Below are positions 4,804 to 33,017 of a stretch of 33,017 nucleotides of DNA, one piece after another (the first letter of the stretch is position 1; each line of letters begins with the position of its first letter). Source of the DNA: Candidatus Saccharimonadota bacterium (GTDB lineage Bacteria; Patescibacteriota; Saccharimonadia; Saccharimonadales; Saccharimonadaceae). The DNA lies in NCBI GenBank assembly GCA_017536895.1, contig JAFWCN010000011.1:1-33017 (forward strand). Reading direction: 5' to 3'. The notes under the pieces were generated by a model that was not told the origin of the DNA, ran no database searches, and saw only the letters and a program-made list of their open reading frames with translations. The position numbers were made by a program, and so were the translations under genes.

Positions 4804-6318
4804 CTAAGATAATTTCTTGCGTAAAATATCTTGTACGGCCGAAGGATTCGCTTTGCCCTTAGACTCTTTCATTACCTGTCCCACTAAGAAACCAATTACT
4901 TTTTCCTCGCCAGCCTTGAAGTCGGCTTGCGCTTTCTGAGTTTCTGGCTTGGCGAGTACCGCATCGACAATTTTCTCAAGCGCGCCTAAATCATTTTCCT
5001 GAATTAAACCTAACTCCTTTGCAATCTGTTTTGCTCCACGACCTTTCATCTGAGGATCAAATAGCTTTAGGAACACTTCCTTGGTCGCAGTCGAGGATAA
5101 TTCTTTCTTGATATTCATTTCGGCTAGTTCATCAAGCTCTTTTGCCGTCGGCAAATCATTCAGATACTCCGCTGACTTCTCTTCCGCAAGCAACACTGAA
5201 GCGAATAGATTAGAAATCAAAAGCACTAGAGAAGATGCTTTAGAGGGGCTTCCGGAGGTTACGACCGAGGATGAGGGCGCGAGCCCCGTGACGACGGGCG
5301 CGAGCGACCCGTCCCCGAGAAAGCCATCTTCTCTGGTGCTTAGTTCACGAAGGCTGTTCATTAGTTGCGGGTAATCGAGCAAGACCTCCAGTATATCTGA
5401 TTTAATAACACCGTCAAACAACTTTCGATAATCCGCCGGCATCAACGGCAACTTCGCCGATTCCTCATCAATAAACTCTGATGAAAGGTTAATTGGCGGA
5501 ATATCTGGTTCCGGCATATAACGATAGTCCTTCGCTTCCTCCTTAGATCTCTGCCCAGTCGTTACTCCAGTAGCATCATTCCATCCTCTAGTTTCCTGGA
5601 CAACTTTTTCGCCTTTTTCAAGGAGCTTAGTCTGCCTCTTAATTTCATATTCAGCTGCTCTTTCGGCTGACCTAAATGAATTCAAGTTCTTCACCTCCGC
5701 TCGTGTGCCTAGCTCCGATGACCCTTCCGGCGCCACCGACACATTCACATCAAACCGCATATTCCCATTATAAAGATCCCCGTAAGTCACTCCCGCATAG
5801 CACATCAGTCTCCACAACTCTTTACAATAATCGTGTACATCCTTGCTAGAATGAATATCTGGCATTGACACGATTTCGATCAAAGGTGTATCGACACGAT
5901 TCAAATCCACGAGCGAATAAGTGTCAAAATGTGTCAGTTTCCCTGCATCACCCTCAAGATGCGCATGCTCAATCCGCACTTTCGTACCCGACGGAAGCTC
6001 CACATATCCTGCTCCAATAATCGGATGATAAAACTGCGAAATCTGATAGCCCTTCGGCGAATCTGGGTAAAAATAGTGTTTGCGGTCAAATCTCGAATAT
6101 GGATTAATCTCGCAATTCATTGCGCGGCCCGCTCGAATTGCAAATTTGATTGCCTCACCATTTAGGCGCGGCAACATTCCTGGCATCGCATAATCCACCG
6201 GCGATACGCAAGAGTTCGGCTCTTTGCCACGCGCATCGTTATCTACTTCAGAAAACAATTTAGTTTTTGTACATAACTGTACGTGACACTCAATACCAAT
6301 CGTTGGAATATATTTCAT
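4804..6318 (-). CDS. gatB: Aspartyl/glutamyl-tRNA amidotransferase subunit B with an inserted palindromic element
   Basis: GatB binds misacylated Glu-tRNA(Gln) or Asp-tRNA(Asn), phosphorylates the side chain and uses ammonia from GatA to make the amide. The 504-residue product starts with GIECHVQLCTKTKLFSE and has YFYPDSPKGYQISQ, the HLEGDAGKL region, and DFNRVDTPLIEIV-like (here DLNRVDTPLIEIV) motifs. The YqeY-like C-terminal tail ends GKANPSAVQDILRKK. Residues about 326-366 are a Ser/Gly/Val-rich segment of low complexity encoded by a GC-rich palindrome (5221-5341), placed between the helical and tail domains where the family has no such stretch. It overlaps the stop of the preceding gene by 4 bp (ATGA), with GGAG just upstream, and is last in the gat operon. 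Confidence 0.96.
   Translation of the reverse strand: MKYIPTIGIECHVQLCTKTKLFSEVDNDARGKEPNSCVSPVDYAMPGMLPRLNGEAIKFAIRAGRAMNCEINPYSRFDRKHYFYPDSPKGYQISQFYHPIIGAGYVELPSGTKVRIEHAHLEGDAGKLTHFDTYSLVDLNRVDTPLIEIVSMPDIHSSKDVHDYCKELWRLMCYAGVTYGDLYNGNMRFDVNVSVAPEGSSELGTRAEVKNLNSFRSAERAAEYEIKRQTKLLEKGEKVVQETRGWNDATGVTTGQRSKEEAKDYRYMPEPDIPPINLSSEFIDEESAKLPLMPADYRKLFDGVIKSDILEVLLDYPQLMNSLRELSTREDGFLGDGSLAPVVTGLAPSSSVVTSGSPSKASSLVLLISNLFASVLLAEEKSAEYLNDLPTAKELDELAEMNIKKELSSTATKEVFLKLFDPQMKGRGAKQIAKELGLIQENDLGALEKIVDAVLAKPETQKAQADFKAGEEKVIGFLVGQVMKESKGKANPSAVQDILRKKLS
5221..5341. repeat. In-frame palindromic element inside gatB
   Basis: Outer arms AAGCACTAGAGAAGATG (from 5221) and CATCTTCTCTGGTGCTT (to 5341) are near-perfect inverted complements. 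The centre is GC-rich, with the hairpin CCCGT-GACG-ACGGG at 5285-5298 and two copies of GGGCGCGAG. Bases 5243-5266 are identical in reverse complement to uvrB 19038-19061. It adds about 40 codons without a stop. The same core occurs in gatA and uvrB. Confidence 0.85.
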
Positions 6319-6734: not shown

Positions 6735-8206
6735 TATTCAAGCTCCTTTGCGAATTCAAGTAGCGCCTTGTCGCTTCGACGTGGCCCGACGAGTTGTAAA
6801 CCAAGCGAAATCCCTTCCGGAGTCTCCCCAGCCGGAATAGCAAGCCCCGGTACTCCAGCGAGATTCAAGGATACACTCATTACGTCTTCAAGATACATTG
6901 CTACTGGATCATCAACCTTCTCACCCAGCTTAAATGCTGGATTCGGCGATACCGGTGTCAAAATAAAATCACATTTAGAAAATGCCTTCGCGTACTCCTC
7001 CACAATCAAAGTCCGAGCTTTCGCTGCTTTCAAGAAATACGCATCATAGAATCCTGAAGATAACACGAAGTTTCCAATCATAATCCGGCGCTTGTTTTCT
7101 GGCATAAATCCTTCGCTTCGCGTTTCGCCATACATTGAATCAACATCTACTGCCTTATCGGAACGAAATCCATATCTCACCCCATCATGGCGCGACAAAT
7201 TCGAAGCAACTTCCGCTGGTACCAAAATATAATACGCCGCGAGGCCATATTTCAAAGCTGGCATTTCAAGCTCCACAATTTCATGACCCTTTTTCTTTAA
7301 AAGCTCACACTTCTCCTTCAGCGCCCTTCGTATTTCCGGATGCACTGACTCGTTGTCGAACTCTTTAATAATACCAATAGTGCGGGTGCAAGAATCAGAC
7401 GATTCGAGACCGTCCGCGACAACGGGAGCGGAATGAGCGCCTGAGCCCCGTAACGACGGGCGCGAAGGCGCGAGTCGAGAATTGTCTGATTTTGCGCCCG
7501 CCTCAGTATTATAATAGTCTGGCAACGTAGTCATGTCTTTCGGGTCTTGCCCCGAGGCCACCGACATCAAAAGGTCCATATCCTCCGGAGTTTTCGTAAA
7601 GAATCCAATACAATCTGTGGATGATGCCATCGCTACTACTCCATACCTAGAGATTGTTCCATAAGTCGGCTTCAACCCGTATATGCCATTGAATGATGCT
7701 GGCTGCCGAATCGAACCACCTGTATCTGTCCCAGTAGCAAATTCCACAATATCAAGCGCTACTGCTACCGCTGAACCACCAGAAGAACCTCCAGCCACCC
7801 GTTCACGGTCATGTGAATTCAAAGTCGGCCCAAAATATGAGTTTTCCGTCGATGAACCATGCGCGAACGCATCTAGGTTTGTTCGCCCAATCATAATCGC
7901 CCCTTCATCCTCCAACTTTTTTACTGAAGTCGCAGTTACCGGAGCAGTAAATCCTTCCAAAATATGTGCCGAAGCCGTTGTCTCGCCACGCGGAGAAAGA
8001 AAATTATCCTTCAGGGCATACGGCACTCCCGCGAGTCGTCCAACATCTTCGCCCTTAGCAATTTTCGCGTCAATTTCTCGCGCTCGCTTCAAAGCCCCCT
8101 CTTCGTCAATAAACGTAAAAATGTGATAATCCTCAAAATGCTTCGCCTTTGCCAAGGCATCTTTCACCAATCTTTCAGCAGTCACTTTTTTGTTTGCTAT
8201 TTTCAT
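6734..8206 (-). CDS. gatA: Aspartyl/glutamyl-tRNA amidotransferase subunit A with an inserted palindromic element
   Basis: GatA is the amidase-signature glutaminase that supplies ammonia to GatB. The 490-residue product has the Ser-cisSer-Lys triad: K66 in ALKDN, S141 in GGSSGGSA and S165 in DTGGSIRQPA. The C-terminal part has NLAGVPGLAIPAG and GLQLVG. Residues about 236-275 (after TLPDYYNTE, before TIGIIKEF) are Ser/Arg/Ala-rich, unlike family members, and are encoded by a GC-rich palindrome (7384-7499) in a loop that precedes a conserved GxxIGxxKE strand. The ATG overlaps the gatC TGA (ATGA); no separate Shine-Dalgarno sequence is evident, so it depends on coupling. Confidence 0.96.
   Translation of the reverse strand: MKIANKKVTAERLVKDALAKAKHFEDYHIFTFIDEEGALKRAREIDAKIAKGEDVGRLAGVPYALKDNFLSPRGETTASAHILEGFTAPVTATSVKKLEDEGAIMIGRTNLDAFAHGSSTENSYFGPTLNSHDRERVAGGSSGGSAVAVALDIVEFATGTDTGGSIRQPASFNGIYGLKPTYGTISRYGVVAMASSTDCIGFFTKTPEDMDLLMSVASGQDPKDMTTLPDYYNTEAGAKSDNSRLAPSRPSLRGSGAHSAPVVADGLESSDSCTRTIGIIKEFDNESVHPEIRRALKEKCELLKKKGHEIVELEMPALKYGLAAYYILVPAEVASNLSRHDGVRYGFRSDKAVDVDSMYGETRSEGFMPENKRRIMIGNFVLSSGFYDAYFLKAAKARTLIVEEYAKAFSKCDFILTPVSPNPAFKLGEKVDDPVAMYLEDVMSVSLNLAGVPGLAIPAGETPEGISLGLQLVGPRRSDKALLEFAKELE
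7384..7499. repeat. In-frame palindromic element inside gatA
   Basis: Outer arms beginning GGGTGCAAGAATCAGACGA (7384-7410) and ending GTCTGATTTTGCGCCC (7474-7499) are imperfect inverted complements. The centre has nested stems: GCGCCT with AGGCGC (7437-7442 / 7466-7471) around CCCGT-AACG-ACGGG (7447-7460). The core GCCCCGTAACGACGGGCGCG differs by one base from the gatB core. It adds about 39 codons in frame. Confidence 0.82.
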
Positions 8207-15862: not shown

Positions 15863-15901
15863 AATGATAAGCATTAATACTATGGAAGGTTATTGTCACC
15901 T

Positions 15902-17359
15902 ATGAAAACAAAGTCACTATTCATTCTCTCGGGAGTATCATTATCTCTTGCTATGATCTCAGCTTTAGCGTTTTCTTCAGCGGTTTCTTATGCCGAAGGC
16001 AGTGATGCTATCGACGAACTCCAGGTCACTGTTAATGTTTCTTGTACTTTGTCTTCCACCCTCGGCACTACCCCTGGCGTGACCGCCTCCACTGACGGCG
16101 AAGGCAACAACACTTATACCACGAGCTTAAACCCCGAGACCGTCAAAGAAATTAACGGTAGCATTCTCTCCACTGTTTGTAATGATTCTGGAGGTTATTC
16201 TCTTTATGCTATCGGTTATTCCGGTGATTCATATGAAGCTCCGGATAACACTAAAATGCTCGGCACCAACAGCAACATCAACACCAGCACTACAACTACC
16301 GGCGACACGGCAAGTTGGTCCATGAAGCTTGCCGAAGTCTCGGGCTACACCCCACCTACCATCTTAAACAGTTTTGATGATTATCACGTCGTACCCGAAA
16401 CATACACCCAGATCGCTAAATACACTTCAGCCACGGCCGCTGCCACTTCTCCTGGCGCTACTATCCAAGCGAAGTATCAACTCTACACAGGGTTCCAGGA
16501 ATCTGGCACCTACACCAGTAAAGTCAAATACACCATCGTCCACCCAAATACCGCGCCGGCACCGAGTACAAAAACCTATATGCAAGATGCTACCTTGGCG
16601 GATTGTGGTAAAACTATGTATGATAAACGTGACTCAGGTACAGAAACCGCTTATACTACAGCTCTAATTGGCGGTCAATGCTGGATGACTACTAATCTGA
16701 ACCTCGCTGGTGGTACCGCCCTCTCTGCAGATGATACTGACGTTACCAGCGCTTACATTAGTAGCTTCACAACCAGCAACAACCTCACGAAGTCAGGCGA
16801 TACCATAGTCCTCCCAGCCTCCACAACTTCTTCAGGCTTTGATACAGATAACTATTCCTATGTAGCTAACTCTGGCAATGCTTCTTCTAACTGCTCCACT
16901 GCTCCAGGATGTTATTCCTACTACTCATGGGATGCTGCTACACTAGGTTCCGGTAGAACCATTGCAACTGATAACACTGATGCCGAACAATCTATCTGCC
17001 CTAAAGGCTGGCACCTACCTAATACCAGAACTGGCACTAATAACACTTCAGACTTCAGGAAACTGATGATTGCTCTAGGTGGATCAAGTTCAAAAGAAAA
17101 CTACGATAGCTCTACTACCCCTACTGGAGCCACTATGTCTACTACCCTCCAAGCCTCCCCTAACAACTTCCTGCGCGCCGGCTACTACATCGTCGGCTCG
17201 TTCGACCTTGGCGGTCGCAGCGGCTATTATTGGAGTTCTACGTCGTACTCCAATAATAGTCGCGCCCGCCTCCTCTTCTTCAATTCAAGCTACGTCTATT
17301 CAGCCAATTACTTCAGTCGCGGCCAGGGTTATTCAGTCCGCTGTGTGCTAGGTAGCTAG
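15902..17359 (+). CDS. Secreted FISUMP-domain surface protein
   Basis: The 485-residue product has a signal peptide (MKTKSLF..., hydrophobic core to about residue 30, cleavage near SYAEG), a Thr/Ser-rich N-terminal part and a C-terminal FISUMP domain. The domain shows CWMTTNLNLAGG, ICPKGWHLPN, YYWSSTSYSNNSRARLLFF and the end SVRCVLGS. FISUMP domains are widespread in secreted proteins of Fibrobacter, Bacteroidetes and Saccharibacteria, and their ligand is unknown. ATG at 15902 is preferred over TTG at 15893 because GGAAGG (15884-15889) is too close to the TTG. It has a good promoter and no clear downstream terminator. A second FISUMP gene lies at 31859. Confidence 0.9.
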   Translation: MKTKSLFILSGVSLSLAMISALAFSSAVSYAEGSDAIDELQVTVNVSCTLSSTLGTTPGVTASTDGEGNNTYTTSLNPETVKEINGSILSTVCNDSGGYSLYAIGYSGDSYEAPDNTKMLGTNSNINTSTTTTGDTASWSMKLAEVSGYTPPTILNSFDDYHVVPETYTQIAKYTSATAAATSPGATIQAKYQLYTGFQESGTYTSKVKYTIVHPNTAPAPSTKTYMQDATLADCGKTMYDKRDSGTETAYTTALIGGQCWMTTNLNLAGGTALSADDTDVTSAYISSFTTSNNLTKSGDTIVLPASTTSSGFDTDNYSYVANSGNASSNCSTAPGCYSYYSWDAATLGSGRTIATDNTDAEQSICPKGWHLPNTRTGTNNTSDFRKLMIALGGSSSKENYDSSTTPTGATMSTTLQASPNNFLRAGYYIVGSFDLGGRSGYYWSSTSYSNNSRARLLFFNSSYVYSANYFSRGQGYSVRCVLGS

Positions 17360-17444: not shown

Positions 17445-19583
17445 CTATTTCTTCCCCTCGGCAAACTCCCTAATCCGCTGAATCTCATCCCTGAGCGCCG
17501 CGGCCTTCTCAAACTCCAGATTCGCCGCCGCGAGTTGCATCTCACCGGTCAGTGATTTGATAAGCCCTGGTAGTTCATCTTTCGGAATCCGCTTGATATC
17601 GAGTTTATCAACCTTTTCTTTCTCCGGAATAATCGCTCGTAAGCCCTTTCCGACCTCCTTCGTAATCGATTGTGGTGTAATTCCATTTTTAGCATTGTAT
17701 TCCTTCTGAATCTCGCGCCGACGATTCGTCTCTGAGATAGCTTTTTCCATGCTTTCAGTGATGTAATCCGCATACATTATCACTTTGCCTTCAACGTGTC
17801 TAGCCGCGCGTCCAATCGTTTGAATCAAGGCTGACTCACTCCTCAGGAACCCTTCCTTATCCGCATCAAGTATCGCAACCAAAGAAACTTCCGGTAAATC
17901 TAGCCCCTCACGCAAAAGATTAATCCCCACCAGCACGTCATACACCCCCTCGCGCAAATCTCTCAAGATGTCACCTCGCTCCAATGTATCAATGTCAGAA
18001 TGGATATAGGCCGTCTTTACTCCTCGTTCTTTCAAATGGTCGGTCAAATCCTCCGCCATCCGTTTCGTCAGGGTCGTAATCAATGTTCGTTGCCCTTTGG
18101 CGATTCGTCGGTCGATCTCTTCCATCAAATTATCGATTTGTCCATCCGAAGGACGCACTTCAATCTCCGGATCGAGTAGTCCAGTCGGTCGAATTACTTG
18201 CTCCGCCGGTTTAGGCGAGACTTCTAATTCATATTCCCCTGGCGTTGCTGACACATAGATTGCTTGATTAATCCGCTTTTGGAACTCACCATAAGTTAGC
18301 GGCCGGTTGTCCAACGCTGACGGTAGCCGGAATCCATAATCTACTAGTGCCAACTTTCGCGCGTGGTCGCCATTGTACATCCCTCTCACCTGCGGCAAAG
18401 TCATATGCGACTCGTCCACGATTAATAGAAAGTCCTTCGGGAAGAAATCAATTAACGTGTGCGGCGGTTCGCCCGCCTTGCGCCCTTCTAGGTGACGAGA
18501 ATAATTCTCGATTCCCTTCACGAAACCGGTTTCCTTCAACATTTCGAGGTCATATTTCGTGCGTTGTGACAATCTTTGCGCCTCTAAGTATTTCTCGTGT
18601 TTTTCAAAATATTTCAATCTCTCTTCAAACTCTTTCCGAATCGCAACGAGTGCGCTATCTAGCGAATCTTCCGGCGTTGCGTAATGTGTATTCGGAAAAA
18701 TGTGCACCTTGTCCGGCTTTTCTCGTACTTCAAATGTCAGCGGATCTACGATTTTAACATCTTCCAGCTGGTCAAAACCAAACTCGAATCGGTACGCATA
18801 TTCCCCATTCGCCGGAAATAGATCAATCGTATCACCCATCACTCGGAAATTACCCCGTTCGAACGCCAAATCATTCCGATGATATTGCATCGCCACTAAT
18901 TGTCGAATGAAAGAGTGCTGGGAAACTGTGTCATTGAGGACATTTCGGAGCCTGGCAAGGCGAGAATTAGCGCCGGCCGCCCGTGGCGACGGGCCGGCCG
19001 GACGCGTGTCCGAAATGACCAGTTTCCAGCCCTCGTTGGTCGTAACCTCCGGAAGCCCCTCAAAATCTTTATTACTAATCACCCAGCCATCTTTTTTTCG
19101 CGCTAGCGGCAATGACATCTCAAGATAATGTTCTGGCGAGCCGATACCGTAAATACACGATACTGATGCCACCACGATTACATCTCGTCGGCTAAGCAGT
19201 GCTTCCGTCGCCGCGTGACGTAATCTATCAATTTCGTCATTAATCGCCGAATCCTTCTCAATGTAAGTATCGGTCGAGGCGATATATGCTTCCGGTTGGT
19301 AATAATCAAAATACGACACAAAATAATGCACCTGGTTCTTCGGGAAAAATTCCCGGAATTCCGAATATAGCTGCGCCGCCAAAGTCTTATTATGCGCCAA
19401 AATCAAGGTCGGCTTCTGTACATTAGCAATAATATTTGCCATTGTAAAAGTTTTACCTGAACCAGTTACCCCAAGCAATGTTTGCTCATGTTCTCCACTC
19501 AAAATACCATCCGTCAGCTGCCTAATCGCTGCCGGCTGGTCGCCCGTGGGCTGGTATTTTGACACTAATTCAAACTTTGCCAT
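17445..19583 (-). CDS. uvrB: Excinuclease ABC subunit B with an inserted palindromic element
   Basis: UvrB verifies DNA damage and loads UvrC in nucleotide excision repair. The 712-residue product starts [20 protein letters not shown] and has Walker [15 protein letters not shown], the beta-hairpin region [18 protein letters not shown], the DESH box in [11 protein letters not shown], the helicase motif IGRAARH and a C-terminal UVR domain ([14 protein letters not shown]). It is about 40 residues longer than usual because of a foreign-looking segment at residues 175-223, between [13 protein letters not shown] and [15 protein letters not shown], encoded by a GC-rich palindrome. An upstream in-frame start at 19721 is rejected since that region is the divergent promoter area. 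The extended -10 ends 7 nt before the ATG, so it is probably leaderless. Confidence 0.96.
18917..19061. repeat. In-frame palindromic element inside uvrB
   Basis: The arms are GCTGGGAAACTG... (18917-18949) and TCCGAAATGACC plus AGTTTCCAGC (19009-19030), inverted complements with small insertions. The centre is the hairpin CCCGT-GGCG-ACGGG (18980-18993) flanked by GGCCGGCC-type repeats. Outside the right arm, 19038-19061 is a 24-bp match to the gatB element. In the minus-strand orientation the order (24-mer, then core) is the same as in gatB on the plus strand. Total insertion is about 45-49 codons in frame. Confidence 0.82.
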
Positions 19584-19622: not shown

Positions 19623-19838
19623 ATGAAATATCAAGTTACGGTTAAACCTGGTACATCTCAAGAAAAAATCGTTCAAACTAGTAGCGATACATACACCATT
19701 TATCTTCGCGCCAAACCTCACGATGGCGAGGCCAACACTGCCCTAATTAAATTACTTGCCAAGCACTTCAATATCCCTAAGACTGCTATCAAAATTACTC
19801 GTGGTGCCAAATCAAAAACCAAAACGGTCGAATTCTAA
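19623..19838 (+). CDS. yggU: DUF167/YggU family protein
   Basis: The 71-residue protein matches the small DUF167 (YggU) family: [16 protein letters not shown], then [23 protein letters not shown] and the end [14 protein letters not shown]. The family signature A.P.dG.AN..li..la..f......i..G..sr.K is complete. The role is unknown. The start at 19623 is used because the in-frame TTG at 19608 would include the -10 element. Its TAA overlaps the lysS stop on the other strand. Confidence 0.88.
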
Positions 19839-21313
19839 TCAATTTTGCGCATAGTTGGAAATGGCACAGCCTCGCGTCCTGAAACTCCCTCTAGTAGCCA
19901 GAAGTTTCGTTCCGAATTTCCCCAACCACAAGCTGGTGGCATGCCGTATTCTAGCATTTCCACGAAATCCATATCCATCATTTGGGCCTCTTCATCGCCC
20001 GCATCGCGTGCAGCCTGTTGTTCTTCAAAGCGTCCCAATTGGTCTAATGGGTCATTCAATTCCGAGAAACCATTCCCCATTTCCGTTCCGGCAATCACCG
20101 GATGGAATCTCTCTGTCACCAAAGGATTATCAGCGGATTTCTTTGCTAGTGGTGATAGGCTTAGCGGCTCCTCAATTACCCAGTATGGTCCAGCCGAAGC
20201 CTTACGAATCAACTTCCATACATTATCAATCAAGTGTGGCGTAGTAGTGTTTTCGAGCTTCTTGACGAATTCATCATGCTTCAAATCCTTCGCGTCCCAA
20301 TTCTCGAGCAGAATCTTAATTAGCTGTTCCCTATCTGGGTTAAACACGTCAACGTTAAACCTATCCTTGAGTAAATCCGCATACTTATAGCGTGGCCACT
20401 CTTGGTCTAAATCGATCTCGAATCCACCCACATTAAACTTCAAAGTGCCCCATGTCTCCTTCGCAACATATTTCATCATCTCTTCATAAAACTTCATCCC
20501 GTCTTCATAGTTCTCGTACGCGGCATAAGCCTCAAATGCGATATGCTCTGGCAAGTGCTCATCATCTACCCCTTCGTTACGGAATCGTGGCCCGATGTCA
20601 TAGACTTTTTCAAACCCACCGCCAAGGAGTCGCTTCAAAGGCAACTCGTGTGAAATTCTTAAGTAAAAATCCTCATCTAACGCATCCATGTGCGTGACGA
20701 ACGGATTCGCGTCCGCCCCGCCGGTCGTGTGCTCAAGTACCGGAATATTAATTTCGATAAATCCATGCGAATTCATAAAATCACGCGTCGCTTGCCAGAA
20801 CTTAGAGCGTCGCACCAATCTCTCACGCACCTCCGGATTCACATTCATATCAACATAGCGACGACGATAACGCTCTTCCTTGTTGGTAAACTTCTCGGGC
20901 AAAGGACGAAGCGATTTAGTAAGTAATCGAACATGGTCAGCGAATACTGAGATTTCGCCTGTTTGAGACTTATCAACGATGCCTTTAGCCTCAATAAAAT
21001 CACCGATATCAAGCAACTTAATTTCTTTTGCACCAAACAAACCCTCCGGCGTAGCTTCGCCGGTCGCTTTCATGAAAATCTGCACCTCACCTGTGTAGTC
21101 GCGCACCTTAATAAACACTAACTTCCCGAATGACCTAATCGCTACAATTCGCCCCGCAATGCACACTTCCTGACCTTTTTTCTCGTCAAAATGGTTTACT
21201 ACATCAAAAATTCGCGTGTTCCGCTCCGATTTGGACGGATACGGCTCTATGCCCCGCGCCCGAATTTCCTCTAATTTTCTAAGTCTTTCGTTTCTATAGT
21301 CATCAAGTATCAT
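19835..21313 (-). CDS. lysS: Lysyl-tRNA synthetase, class II
   Basis: The 492-residue enzyme charges tRNA(Lys). It has an N-terminal OB-fold anticodon-binding domain (about 50-150, GRIVAIRSFGKLVFIKVRD), motif 2 with YDIGPRFRNEGVDDEHLPEH, and lysine-pocket residues near AGTEMGNGFSELNDP. Motif 3 is GWGNSERNFWLLEG ending VPFPTMR. The usual motif 3 GxGxGxDR reads GWGNSER; the Arg is kept. The start at 21313 gives the normal N-terminus MILDDYRNERLRKLEEI; an upstream in-frame start would translate the intergenic palindrome. TGGTATAAT ends 7 nt before the ATG, predicting a leaderless mRNA. Confidence 0.95.
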   Translation of the reverse strand: MILDDYRNERLRKLEEIRARGIEPYPSKSERNTRIFDVVNHFDEKKGQEVCIAGRIVAIRSFGKLVFIKVRDYTGEVQIFMKATGEATPEGLFGAKEIKLLDIGDFIEAKGIVDKSQTGEISVFADHVRLLTKSLRPLPEKFTNKEERYRRRYVDMNVNPEVRERLVRRSKFWQATRDFMNSHGFIEINIPVLEHTTGGADANPFVTHMDALDEDFYLRISHELPLKRLLGGGFEKVYDIGPRFRNEGVDDEHLPEHIAFEAYAAYENYEDGMKFYEEMMKYVAKETWGTLKFNVGGFEIDLDQEWPRYKYADLLKDRFNVDVFNPDREQLIKILLENWDAKDLKHDEFVKKLENTTTPHLIDNVWKLIRKASAGPYWVIEEPLSLSPLAKKSADNPLVTERFHPVIAGTEMGNGFSELNDPLDQLGRFEEQQAARDAGDEEAQMMDMDFVEMLEYGMPPACGWGNSERNFWLLEGVSGREAVPFPTMRKID

Positions 21314-21320
21314 AAGATAT

Positions 21321-21329
21321 ATTATACCA
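21321..21329 (-). promoter_or_regulatory. Extended -10 promoter of lysS (leaderless)
   Basis: TGGTATAAT (21329-21321) ends 7 nt before the lysS ATG, just beyond the end of the greA-lysS palindrome. Confidence 0.7.
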
Positions 21330-21332
21330 TAT

Positions 21333-21476
21333 AATAAAAACTTTTCTAAGCTTGCCGTTTCTAGGCTAAAAATCTGAAAAAATAGTGATGGAAAGCCGGT
21401 ACTGAAATACCGGAAGGATTCCATCAGATTATTTTTTCAGATTTTTACCTCTGGCAAGCTTAGAAAAGTTTTTATT
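21333..21476. repeat. 144-bp palindrome between greA and lysS (MITE-like or double terminator)
   Basis: A perfect 24-bp outer inverted repeat (21333-21356 / 21453-21476; CTTTTCTAAGCTTGCC at its inner part) encloses a perfect 18-bp repeat, TAAAAATCTGAAAAAATA (21367-21384 / 21430-21447), then TGATGGAA/TTCCATCA and CCGGTA/TACCGG around a 6-nt loop. The inner hairpin is followed by a T tract on both strands, so it can terminate transcription either way. The greA stop codon lies in the right arm. Confidence 0.88.
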
Positions 21477-21918
21477 TAATATCTATAACCTTTATCTTTT
21501 TGCCATTAAAATCAAAAGATTCACCAGCCTTATGTCCTAAGAGAGCTTTACCGATTGGCGATTCGTTAGAAATCTTGCCCTCAAGTGGGTTCGCTTCGGT
21601 CGGCCCAACTAAGGTATATTCAACTTTACGACCTCCCATGCTTAATACCACGCAAGCACCAAGATCCACCTTAGTCTTCTTCCCTCCTCGAATCACTTTC
21701 GCATTCTTCAAAATATCTTGGATTTCCAAAATTCTTCCCTCAGCCACTTTCTGTTCGTTACGCGCTGAGCTATACTCCTCGTTTTCCGATAAATCCCCGA
21801 AGGAACGTGCCGTTGCGATTCGCTCAGCGATTTTTGGTCGCTCAGCAATCAAAGCTTTCAGTTCGTTTTCAAGCTCTTTTTTCCCCTCTGCAGTTAAACT
21901 AATATTTTTCTTAATCAT
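21472..21918 (-). CDS. greA: Transcription elongation factor GreA
   Basis: GreA rescues backtracked RNA polymerase by stimulating transcript cleavage. The 148-residue product has the normal coiled-coil N-terminus with the acidic tip motif SFGDLSENEEYSSARNEQ (D42, E45) and a C-terminal FKBP-like domain ending SPIGKALLGHKAGESFDF. It is monocistronic, from a TTGACT/TAAACT promoter with a short leader holding GGAA. Its TAA stop lies inside the outer arm of the 144-bp palindrome. Confidence 0.95.
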   Translation of the reverse strand: MIKKNISLTAEGKKELENELKALIAERPKIAERIATARSFGDLSENEEYSSARNEQKVAEGRILEIQDILKNAKVIRGGKKTKVDLGACVVLSMGGRKVEYTLVGPTEANPLEGKISNESPIGKALLGHKAGESFDFNGKKIKVIDIK

Positions 21919-21943
21919 AATAAGTTCCAGTTTTACCTACATA

Positions 21944-21972
21944 AGTTTACACGAAAACACTAATCAAGTCAA
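21944..21972 (-). promoter_or_regulatory. Promoter of greA
   Basis: TTGACT (21972-21967) and TAAACT (21949-21944) are spaced by 17 bp on the minus strand. Predicted leader about 20 nt. Confidence 0.65.
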
Positions 21973-21978
21973 TAGTTT

Positions 21979-22800
21979 TTAGGCGCCCATTCCGAGCATA
22001 TATAACAGGTAAAAAGCCACCCCGTTTTTTAGCATATGAAGCAGTATTCCGGCGTAAATCGTCCCCGTGATTTCACGAAGGGCGCATAGTACGATGGACA
22101 TTGCAAATACGTTTACCCCTACATTCCACTGCATATGCACGAGACCAAACAGCATCGACACGAGCAAAGTAGTGATGATAATTGCTGCCGGATGCCCCAT
22201 TTCATTCCATAATTTAGAACGAATTTTCTCATAGAGCCATCCTCGGAAAATTATTTCTTCGGCCACTGGCGCCACTGCTACTAACGTGAAAAATGCTAGT
22301 ACCCGGTCAAACCCCATAATAAATGTATTGAATCCCACATCTTGCGCTTCTCCCGCATCAAACCACGAGAACTGACTAAATAGCGCTACGAGTCCTGCCG
22401 CAAGCAACATGTAAACAACGAACCCAACTGGTGCTAGTCCAATATCAGTCCAAGTTGGCCAACCTTTTAATCCTAACTTCTCGCGAGTCTCAGCCTTGCT
22501 GGGTTTTTGATATTTATCTCCTCGCCATTTCGTCAGTAATTTTGGTGGCACATAAACCGTCAAAAACAACGCCAAAGAATACGAAATAGCTGAATAAAAC
22601 GCCGTGACGACCGGCTTGTCAAAGGCTTCTGTGCCAAGAATCAGAATCATCAAAAACCCCACCACAAACTGTGAAGCAATTACTGTCACTCCGACCCAAA
22701 TAAGCAGCAATAGAATTTCAAAAGCGGTCTTCCACCTCTGTTTTTTCGGCAAATTCTTAGGTGCCTGCTTTGTTTTATCTGAAGTCTTTGTCTTAGCCAT
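21979..22800 (-). CDS. CPBP-family intramembrane metalloprotease
   Basis: The 273-residue polytopic protein has about seven hydrophobic segments after a basic N-terminus. It carries the CPBP (Abi/CAAX-protease-like) motifs: EEIIFRGWLYE with E181, E182 and R186, then FGLVHMQWN with H222, and a C-terminal HMLKNGVAF region. The family includes Rce1-type prenyl-protein proteases and bacteriocin-immunity proteins; the substrate here is unknown. Its ATG shares one base with the rseP stop (TAATG), so the two are translationally coupled membrane proteases. The start is supported by the MAKTKTSDK cytoplasmic tail. Confidence 0.9.
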   Translation of the reverse strand: MAKTKTSDKTKQAPKNLPKKQRWKTAFEILLLLIWVGVTVIASQFVVGFLMILILGTEAFDKPVVTAFYSAISYSLALFLTVYVPPKLLTKWRGDKYQKPSKAETREKLGLKGWPTWTDIGLAPVGFVVYMLLAAGLVALFSQFSWFDAGEAQDVGFNTFIMGFDRVLAFFTLVAVAPVAEEIIFRGWLYEKIRSKLWNEMGHPAAIIITTLLVSMLFGLVHMQWNVGVNVFAMSIVLCALREITGTIYAGILLHMLKNGVAFYLLYMLGMGA

Positions 22801-31858: not shown

Positions 31859-33017
31859 CTACGAGCCCAGCAAACACCTCAGTGAGTGACCGTAGTTGCG
31901 AAGACCGTAATCGTTGTTCACATGGCTAGAACGGACGTACAGACGGTACATACCGCTACCAGAGTTGTAAGTAGAAGACCAGAAGTCGCCATAGGAGCCC
32001 TGATAGCGCGCCGAGCCATCGTAGAAGTAGCCAGAGAAAAGCGTAGAAAGAGCGTTCATAAATTTGGCATCACTACTACTATAGGCTGTGTAAAGGGCTT
32101 GGTATTCGCCGGAGGAGCCTCCTGTAGGCATACGCCAGCCAGCTGGACAAAGATCATATGAGGCATTACCGGTGCCGGCTTTCTGGTCGTAGCAATAAGA
32201 GCCAGCTGAGGCAGCGCAGTAGTTGTAGTAGACGCCGATTTTACCAGAACCTTGACCGTAGACAATTGGTGCTATAGTGTCTTTGTAGTCTGCATTGGCT
32301 TTGGCCTGGTTGTAGACATTAGAGCTACTACTAGAATCCCATTTGACGAAGCCTGAAGATGCGTACTGTGCTCCAGCACTACGGTTACCGGATTTGAGGG
32401 ATTTGAGGGAAGCAGAGTTTACGTGAGTGTTGGAAGTAGTGAGGCCGTTTAGGACAGTGGAGTTAGTGAGATTTAGGCGGAGATTATCTAGCATCCAGCA
32501 TTTATCATCTTCTAGCTTGCCGATATAATACACTTCATTATCACGAGTATCTATGACTTGTCCAATCTGTCCTTTTGTTACTGCATTACAAATATTAGTA
32601 GTTCCATCTTGTATTTTGTAATAACCACTGTATTTAGATTTACCGGCAGCAGCATAGGCCTGATCAAAGGTAGTTTCAGAAACTACATACTGCGCATAAA
32701 GAATATTTGCAGTAGCAGAAGTGGATGTGGATGTCCTAATCCATTGTTTAGATGCATTGGTCCAGCTAGAAACGCTAGCTACAACCGTACCGTCAGCATT
32801 AATGACTTTATTCCCGCCACTAGCTGCAGTATACCAACCATCAAAGACCTTGCCGGATGGTGGAGTAGCAGAAGGAATGGCTCTTGCTGTAGTACCAGTT
32901 CTGCTGGAGTAGGTAGCGGTGCCACCATAGTAGACATAGACTGGGCTAGTACCGCTAAGGGTACCACCATTAGTCGTAGCATCAAAGTTAATGCGAGAGT
33001 TTACTATAGTCATAGTG
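31859..33017 (-). CDS. FISUMP-domain surface protein with InlB-type repeat, 5' end missing
   Basis: The visible 384+ residues have an InlB B-repeat-like segment (FDATTNGGTLSG ... GKVFDGWYTAASGGNKVI) followed by a FISUMP domain: CWMLDNLRLNL, LCPAGWRMPTGG, GDFWSSTYNSGSGMYRLYV and the end GHSLRCLLGS. The frame is open to the window edge. The only start near it (33013) has no Shine-Dalgarno sequence or signal peptide, so the gene probably begins outside. The C-terminus closely resembles that of the 15902-17359 protein. The IS ends abut its 3' end. Confidence 0.88.
   Translation of the reverse strand, partial: TMTIVNSRINFDATTNGGTLSGTSPVYVYYGGTATYSSRTGTTARAIPSATPPSGKVFDGWYTAASGGNKVINADGTVVASVSSWTNASKQWIRTSTSTSATANILYAQYVVSETTFDQAYAAAGKSKYSGYYKIQDGTTNICNAVTKGQIGQVIDTRDNEVYYIGKLEDDKCWMLDNLRLNLTNSTVLNGLTTSNTHVNSASLKSLKSGNRSAGAQYASSGFVKWDSSSSSNVYNQAKANADYKDTIAPIVYGQGSGKIGVYYNYCAASAGSYCYDQKAGTGNASYDLCPAGWRMPTGGSSGEYQALYTAYSSSDAKFMNALSTLFSGYFYDGSARYQGSYGDFWSSTYNSGSGMYRLYVRSSHVNNDYGLRNYGHSLRCLLGS

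Follow-up and report, generated by a model that had tools for sequence, protein, structure and literature searches.

An extended hairpin occupies the greA-lysS gap

The stretch of DNA analysed here (hereafter the window, 33,017 nucleotides from a Candidatus Saccharimonadota bacterium) carries on its minus strand the neighbouring genes greA (21472-21918) and lysS (19835-21313), which were recognized by profile as coding for GreA and lysine--tRNA ligase. The start codon of lysS was placed at 21313 by comparison with relatives. Downstream of greA in the direction of transcription, the gap between the two genes holds a 144-bp hairpin (21333-21476) that is intergenic except for the greA stop codon (TAA, minus strand, 21472-21474), which resides inside its right arm.

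The original prediction described a near-perfect, AT-rich palindrome extending from the greA stop to the region upstream of lysS, and this description is accurate. The outer arms (21333-21356 and 21453-21476) are 100% complementary over 24 bp, and the inner arms (21367-21384 and 21430-21447) are 100% complementary over 18 bp. Further inner arms of 8 bp (21386-21393 and 21419-21426) and 6 bp (21396-21401 and 21408-21413) can be read from the sequence, and the GC content of the hairpin is 33%. The lysS promoter was likewise predicted to lie right after the left arm, and we find a promoter-like site on the minus strand (21321-21348), recognized by consensus match, whose -10 element (TATAAT, 21326-21321) is directly beyond the arm and whose -35-like hexamer (TAGAAA, 21348-21343) is within it.

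The 24- and 18-bp arms are the two longest exact inverted repeats of the window, where the next longest spans 15 bp, and they are beyond chance expectation given that the longest exact arm in 200 simulated windows (Markov-1) was 17 bp. As minus-strand RNA the region folds at -74.6 kcal/mol (z -12.5), and as plus-strand DNA at -50 kcal/mol (z -13.6); in both cases none of 200 shuffled sequences folded as well. For the terminator on both strands that the original prediction suggested, a scan for intrinsic terminators gave no match, with a design (loops of 3-8 nt, at most 20 pairs) that a 144-nt hairpin exceeds, and the orientation of the element is unrelated to gene direction (see below). No Rfam family reached its gathering score in the interval 21000-22000, and the eight sub-threshold matches there at E<=1, of the sort that a long hairpin may produce, are for the most part to models of microRNAs, the others being a plastid UTR and a snoRNA.

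The palindrome description needs one refinement: each departure from symmetry at this locus recurs in the family described below. We define the plus strand of the element as the strand carrying AGGCT...GATGGAA...CTGNAA, which here is the plus strand of the window. Read in this direction, the element, a subtype A copy supported by arm complementarity, folds, a covariance model and alignment, begins with an outer arm (21333-21356) whose sequence varies among copies while its pairing with the 3′ side (21453-21476) is kept. A 6-nt spacer (21357-21362), evident from sequence and alignment, faces only 2 nt (21451-21452) and is followed by AGG, paired with CCT (21448-21450), and by a bulged C at 21366 (together 21363-21366). 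The inner stem (21367-21385 with 21429-21447) ends in G21385, which forms a G.T pair in 46/46 aligned copies, and on its 3′ side lies a 2-nt bulge (21427-21428) that the consensus folds for subtypes B and C also show. The conserved apical core (21386-21426) consists of a stem formed by TGATGGAA and TTCCATCA, an AG/AAGGA internal loop, a CCGGTA/TACCGG stem and a CTGAAA loop, which in the family is mostly CTGNAA.

The hairpin belongs to a dispersed family

A search for further copies, as recommended by the original prediction, gave different answers for the window's own genome and for its genus. BLASTN detected no second copy of the greA-lysS hairpin in its own genome, and in the genus it matched 24 of 100 genomes at E<=0.01, some in multiple copies. 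A covariance model identified relatives in 45 of 174 genomes of the genus and gave no match in the other 129. With this model the window's own genome contains one A copy and two subtype B relatives on other contigs, and the number of places per genome ranges from 1 to 15. The maximum is found in genome G095, where several copies with nearly identical arms occupy different loci with different flanks.

In a sample of the family (199 genomes, 61 genera) matches were confined to the genus itself, and in a sample of the order (246 genomes, 132 genera) there was one weak extra match (G400, E 1.7e-4), with filters that lose weak matches in both samples. The latter place (G400:C2:38041-38161, L349), in another family of the order, is a strong hairpin with a similar AAAGGCTAAAA stretch and another tip. 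When the tip alone was sought among titled genomes, 73 stretches were recovered, of which 49 are in Candidatus Saccharibacteria, mostly from the ruminant gut according to the titles. The other 24 have no matching arms by eye, though five of them fold below -50 kcal/mol. A pattern search of viral contigs gave five tip matches, none in a strong hairpin. In a search for a gene-carrying version with the 5′ half of the A core as query, exact and single-mismatch matches in the genus all correspond to known hairpins, and eight matches with two mismatches lie elsewhere, without a known hairpin.

There are at least three subtypes (A, B and C) that differ in sequence and are similar in tip and layout. 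The covariance model lists 109 distinct places, with strands merged and one tandem merged. Our analysed set comprises 86 copies from 37 genomes and 58 loci, namely 85 of these places and one copy from elsewhere, and it excludes 20 weak places, three G095 copies cut by contig ends, and one with a broken tip (G095:C41:21744). Subtypes were assigned by simple patterns, which five of the 86 copies do not fit. From these data we conclude that the greA-lysS palindrome represents a hairpin element that codes for no protein, is scattered over many loci and, as far as we searched, is restricted to one Saccharibacteria genus. Among the papers listed by our literature searches, none describes such an element.

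Base pairing is maintained at the level of DNA

The layout of the element is readily described from its base upward. An outer stem of about 24 bp is followed by a spacer of about 6 nt that faces 1-2 nt, by three pairs and by the bulged C. Above this lies a stem of 19-20 pairs that is closed by the G.T pair and has the 2-nt bulge on its 3′ side. The top is composed of an 8-bp stem (5-6 bp in subtypes B and C), an asymmetric loop, a stem of 5-6 bp and the CTGNAA loop. Subtype A conserves these irregular features, from the spacer and the bulged C to the fixed G.T pair, the 2-nt bulge and the CTGNAA tip, and the 2-nt bulge and the tip loop are kept in all three subtypes. In some copies (G018:C59:6449-6669, L038/L217; G166:C10, L216; G095, L211 and L212), hairpins inserted between CTG and AA take the place of the tip loop and produce a branched tip. 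Readings of the loops as K-turn or GNRA motifs were considered and set aside.

When 46 A-type copies were aligned, 94.5% of the cells were paired, compared with 40-51% in controls with slid partners. Changes on both sides were evident in 45 of 61 pairs, including all 25 pairs of the outer stem. For example, the outer arms of the five copies in genome G089 are all different, and each is largely self-complementary; between the window and its relative G085, the outer arm exhibits one complementary double change. We propose that the arms need only be complementary, and that their sequence is therefore free to vary.

RNA helices tolerate G-U pairs but not A-C mismatches, and the elements do not show this preference. 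With the fixed G.T pair set aside, together with nine outer pairs that align poorly, we counted 2240 Watson-Crick, 35 G-U (1.5% of pairs) and 21 A-C cells, a ratio of G-U to A-C with a binomial p of 0.08; over all helices, there were 42 G-U and 35 A-C. In contrast, for 55 distinct tRNAs encoded on these contigs, the acceptor and T stems contain 610 Watson-Crick, 44 G-U (6.7%) and four A-C cells (Fisher p 7e-11 for the G-U share, and 5e-4 for G-U against A-C). Because G-U is rare in the elements and barely exceeds A-C, unlike in tRNA stems, we conclude that the pairing constraint acts on DNA and not on RNA. Selection for a cruciform, which was among the readings originally offered, is the one nearest to this evidence, since pairing at the DNA level is kept despite sequence change.

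Occupied, empty and inverted sites

Thirteen of the 58 loci hold two or more copies. One of these is a trio inside G095 with repeated flanks, and the rest are common to different species. At four shared loci one copy is inverted. Different subtypes are found at five shared loci, at one of which a copy without subtype assignment is matched with a B copy; such differences could also mean that these are old resident sites. The sampled loci are flanked by ordinary genes, such as those for IF-2, DnaK, RuvB, NusA, thymidylate kinase, EF-P and RNase J, and most copies lie between genes, often a few bases from the end of an ORF.

At the greA-lysS locus, three other species carry the element, in the same orientation in G085 and G096 and inverted in G125. 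Among 30 of 95 greA loci that were compared, the window's included, eight relatives have a compact greA-lysS gap with neither arm, and further loci have gaps of different content. Insertion, as originally predicted, is supported by these eight compact gaps and by the many unrelated loci that carry copies. That it was recent is not, as G085 and G096 share site and orientation with the window at GreA identities of 92% and 86%, respectively. Nor is the palindrome confined to one place across distant relatives, which the original prediction had named as the distribution that would speak against it. The opposite was seen, with copies elsewhere and the site empty in most of the relatives seen. The element copies of the window and G085 are 98% alike, and their flanks 81-92%, which fits a host-level constraint as well as mobility. 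For the best pair of filled and empty sites (G083 and G131), no clear target-site duplication is evident, at junctions too diverged to exclude one. Across the family, many loci carry a copy, and at several of them relatives have none.

We considered whether the core had jumped into the loops of pre-existing terminators. This was rejected for greA-lysS because the compact empty sites hold neither arm, and it is also opposed by the several G095 copies with the same arms at different loci. A composite transposon in G166, where two extended-tip copies of opposite orientation lie 10 kb apart, is likewise not evident, as the genes between them serve mainly the cell wall and division, with one KwaB-like gene in addition; four of the ten ORFs scanned in this interval have no gathering-level family.

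Several further observations were made at individual loci. KwaB-like genes (L170:8976-9983 in G111 and L216:9473-10477 in G166) adjoin a hairpin at a locus that is occupied in six species, the match being above the Pfam cut-off in G166 and under the NCBIfam cut-off in G111. The greA-lysS gap of G082 (L071) contains another long palindrome that lacks a CTGNAA tip. In G095, several copies (for example L034, L035, L037, L039 and L183) have arms that are almost the same and flanks that are similar, and some of them lie at contig ends; in this genome the hairpins may have spread along with repeated genes. One G095 copy adjoins a gene for a FISUMP-domain protein identified by profile. In the window, the ORF at 15893-17359 also codes for a FISUMP-domain protein by profile, and the ORF at 31859-33013 ends in a similar motif without a profile match at E<=1e-10.

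Orientation mostly follows GC skew

For 77 of the 86 copies (p 7e-15), the C-rich strand carries the plus strand of the element, and with one count per locus this holds for 51 of the 55 loci with at least 9 kb of context (p 1e-11), where these p values treat copies or loci as independent and ignore relatedness. Orientation was judged from up to 20 kb of context. The bias is complete for the subtype B, C and unassigned copies (35/35) and weaker for subtype A (42/51). Outside the analysed set, the three contig-end copies of G095 and its copy with a broken tip are also on the C-rich side. Of the nine exceptions, eight have at least 9 kb of context, and three of the four flipped copies at shared loci (G125, G149 and G083) are among them, while the fourth (G166) is not.

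Orientation has no relation to net gene direction, as 40 of the 86 copies run against it. Of the 1124 ORFs of at least 150 aa in these contexts, 626 are on the G-rich strand, a count in which overlapping contexts contribute repeatedly. The same strand of the element therefore lies mostly on the C-rich side whatever the direction of the genes, with GC skew along contigs, rather than mapped origins, serving as the proxy for replication direction. We regard this as a replication-strand bias. In bacteria, the G-rich strand is usually the leading strand. If this holds here, then the minus strand of the element would be the lagging-strand template, which is exposed at the replication fork.

Candidate enzymes and a proposed mechanism

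Profile searches were conducted for three types of enzyme. The Y1 transposase (PF01797) is absent from the window's own genome; in the genus, 8 of 170 genomes have a match, seven of them above the cut-off. The integron integrase (TIGR02249) has no match above the cut-off in any of the 170, and the sub-threshold matches listed align to its C-terminal part, like the tyrosine recombinases in all 14 control genomes. Reverse transcriptase domains are present in 95 of 170 genomes, often at least two per genome, and none were found in the window's own genome; they are not associated with the element (26 of 45 genomes with it, 69 of 125 without). None of these three enzymes accounts for the element.

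Variable paired ends, conserved flaws and a strand preference linked to replication are most simply accounted for if a folded single strand is recognized. Building on the observed fold, DNA-level covariation, dispersal and strand bias, we infer that the element is mobile and works in single-stranded, folded form on the template of the lagging strand, a reading to which we assign a probability of about one half. Exposure of this template at the replication fork would allow the single strand to fold into its functional form. A protein recognizing the bulges and tip of the strand so folded would cut or join it, and the element might then excise and re-insert, sometimes flipped at the same site, or copy itself, with its orientation set by the exposed strand. 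Perhaps the enzyme is a host protein of nearly every genome, such as a Xer-type recombinase or a replication or repair nuclease, which we propose because no dedicated enzyme was found among those searched. Against the mechanism stand the failure of the Y1, integrase and reverse transcriptase searches to yield a partner, the lack of any visible target duplication or fixed end, the nine of 86 copies on the other side, and the weaker bias in subtype A alone.

Other explanations for these observations were weighed. The perfection of the arms could be a mutational by-product, whereby template switching between the arms during replication repeatedly copies one arm onto its partner, at times also inverting the middle of an inert insertion, and generates covariation without function. 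Portions of two published accounts describe template switching as able to homogenise arms and invert spacers (PMC8604942) and to create and maintain hairpins (PMC8794818). Such a process would produce Watson-Crick pairing with few G-U pairs, the single complementary double change in the outer arm between the window and G085, and inverted copies at shared loci. However, it should also erase asymmetries, and the elements retain both bulges (the single C and the 2 nt), their spacer and, in every aligned A copy, the G.T pair. It also leaves the dispersal unexplained and cannot alone explain the one-sided orientation, and we consider it rather unlikely. A different proposal, that the element is a site serving replication or chromosome handling (priming, fork passage or segregation) whose orientation is under selection, draws on the uniform orientation to GC skew outside subtype A, on the conserved structure and tip, on the loci common to different species, and on the greater conservation of the greA-lysS copy than of its flanks between the window and G085. 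Its difficulty is patchiness: most genomes of the genus have no match, those with matches have anywhere from one place to 15, and the window's own genome has one A copy. This distribution is unlike that of an essential chromosomal site, and we judge this proposal unlikely.

The very stable RNA fold, the intergenic position of most copies close to ORF ends, and the slight excess of G-U over A-C would be expected of a structured non-coding RNA, or of a terminator or insulator, carried between genes. This reading is highly improbable given the scarcity of G-U pairs and their near parity with A-C mismatches relative to tRNA stems, the independence of orientation from gene direction, and the absence of an Rfam family at gathering score in the interval 21000-22000. 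The original prediction offered a MITE-like insertion, and in its classical form this would be an internally deleted IS derivative whose terminal inverted repeats are acted on in trans by a DDE transposase. A non-coding, 144-bp, intergenic, dispersed and patchily distributed element with empty sites resembles one in these respects. In the strict sense the label does not apply, because the ends, where a transposase would bind, are variable and the centre is conserved. No target duplication is seen in the best pair (G083 and G131, whose flanks have diverged), and a strand bias is not predicted by double-strand transposition; we hold a classical MITE to be the least probable of all these explanations.

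Returning to the folded single strand at the fork, we note what it would imply. Small palindromic repeats are common in bacteria and are usually thought to be recognized by their sequence. In the present family the arms are free in sequence, folding is preserved at the DNA level together with its flaws, and the orientation follows replication. As a result, natural genomes offer a test of single-stranded hairpin DNA as a working form in vivo. The cells of Saccharibacteria are small and depend on a host, and the spread of the element without a visible transposase points either to a host enzyme with an unrecognized activity or to a replication-linked role for the hairpin. Taken together, our observations describe a family of hairpin elements, restricted to one genus, whose pairing is kept at the DNA level and whose orientation is linked to replication; the proposed mechanism is plausible.

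Inserts in gatB, gatA and uvrB

The window carries a second set of hairpins within genes named by profile, as inserts in gatB (5212-5350), gatA (7375-7515) and uvrB (18905-19045), all on the plus strand. These are hairpins of about 115-125 bp with different self-complementary outer stems and a conserved two-hairpin tip. With the gatA insert as query, BLASTN located 14 places in the same genome, or 15 with uvrB, and one of these (L348) has no fold with a long outer stem. All 15 places are oriented alike relative to GC skew, although several of them lie in a common context and three of the skews are within 0.03 of zero. The greA-lysS palindrome was originally held to be unrelated to this family, and in sequence it is; the gatA/gatB/uvrB inserts do follow a similar logic, with variable paired arms, a conserved tip and the same strand side in their 15/15 places.

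We also put forward, with some doubt, a broader and more tentative suggestion. The elements may represent a new class of mobile DNA, composed of hairpins without fixed ends that would be recognized single-stranded at the fork via their bulges and tip. They would re-insert at preferred gene junctions on a strand set by fork direction, and would be moved by a host protein without a transposase of their own. If so, the intergenic and the in-gene gatA/gatB/uvrB families of this genome might be brought under one rule.

Comparison with known systems

Palindromic elements of Rickettsia are about 150 bp, form several families and in some cases reside in-frame within genes, as described in the relevant part of PMC10969869. 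The greA-lysS element differs from these in being intergenic and in its replication-linked strand bias, a property not mentioned for the Rickettsia elements in that part of the source; the inserts in gatA, gatB and uvrB look closer to them. MITEs, including the ERIC type, are short and mostly intergenic, with copy numbers that vary widely between genomes according to the same part of the source (PMC10969869). The hairpin element is similarly short, non-coding and dispersed. It departs from them in its variable ends (25/25 outer-stem pairs vary on both sides), conserved centre and strand bias, and no autonomous partner with conserved terminal inverted repeats was seen in the profile searches, which covered Y1 transposase, integron integrase and reverse transcriptase.

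REPs, REPINs and hairpins of the IS200/IS605 type resemble the element in being dispersed hairpins. REPs are described, in the portion of PMC3733652 used here, as 20-40 bp long with a tag at one end. In contrast, the element is 144 bp, has no GTAG/CGTC tag at its foot and no fixed ends, and the Y1 (RAYT/TnpA-REP) transposase is absent from its own genome and rare in the genus (8/170). The element therefore fails the defining features of REPs, as it does those of MITEs and RNA families.

The sites called attC in integrons have an unpaired spacer, and the unpaired spacer near the bulged base of our element looks alike. These palindromic sites are read as one folded (bottom) strand via extrahelical bases, according to part of PMC3053210. 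The hairpin element likewise conserves its fold with a free sequence and has unpaired bases on one strand, which we propose are read by a protein. Unlike attC, it has no fixed end sequence, its outer stem is about 25 bp, it has one bulged base near the spacer rather than a T-N6-G arrangement, no gene cassettes were seen, and no integron integrase scores above the cut-off in 170 genomes. IS608 and ISDra2 target the lagging-strand template, as reported in part of PMC6006769. Although it fails the defining features of both, the hairpin element would appear to work most like integron attC sites or lagging-strand elements of the IS608 type.
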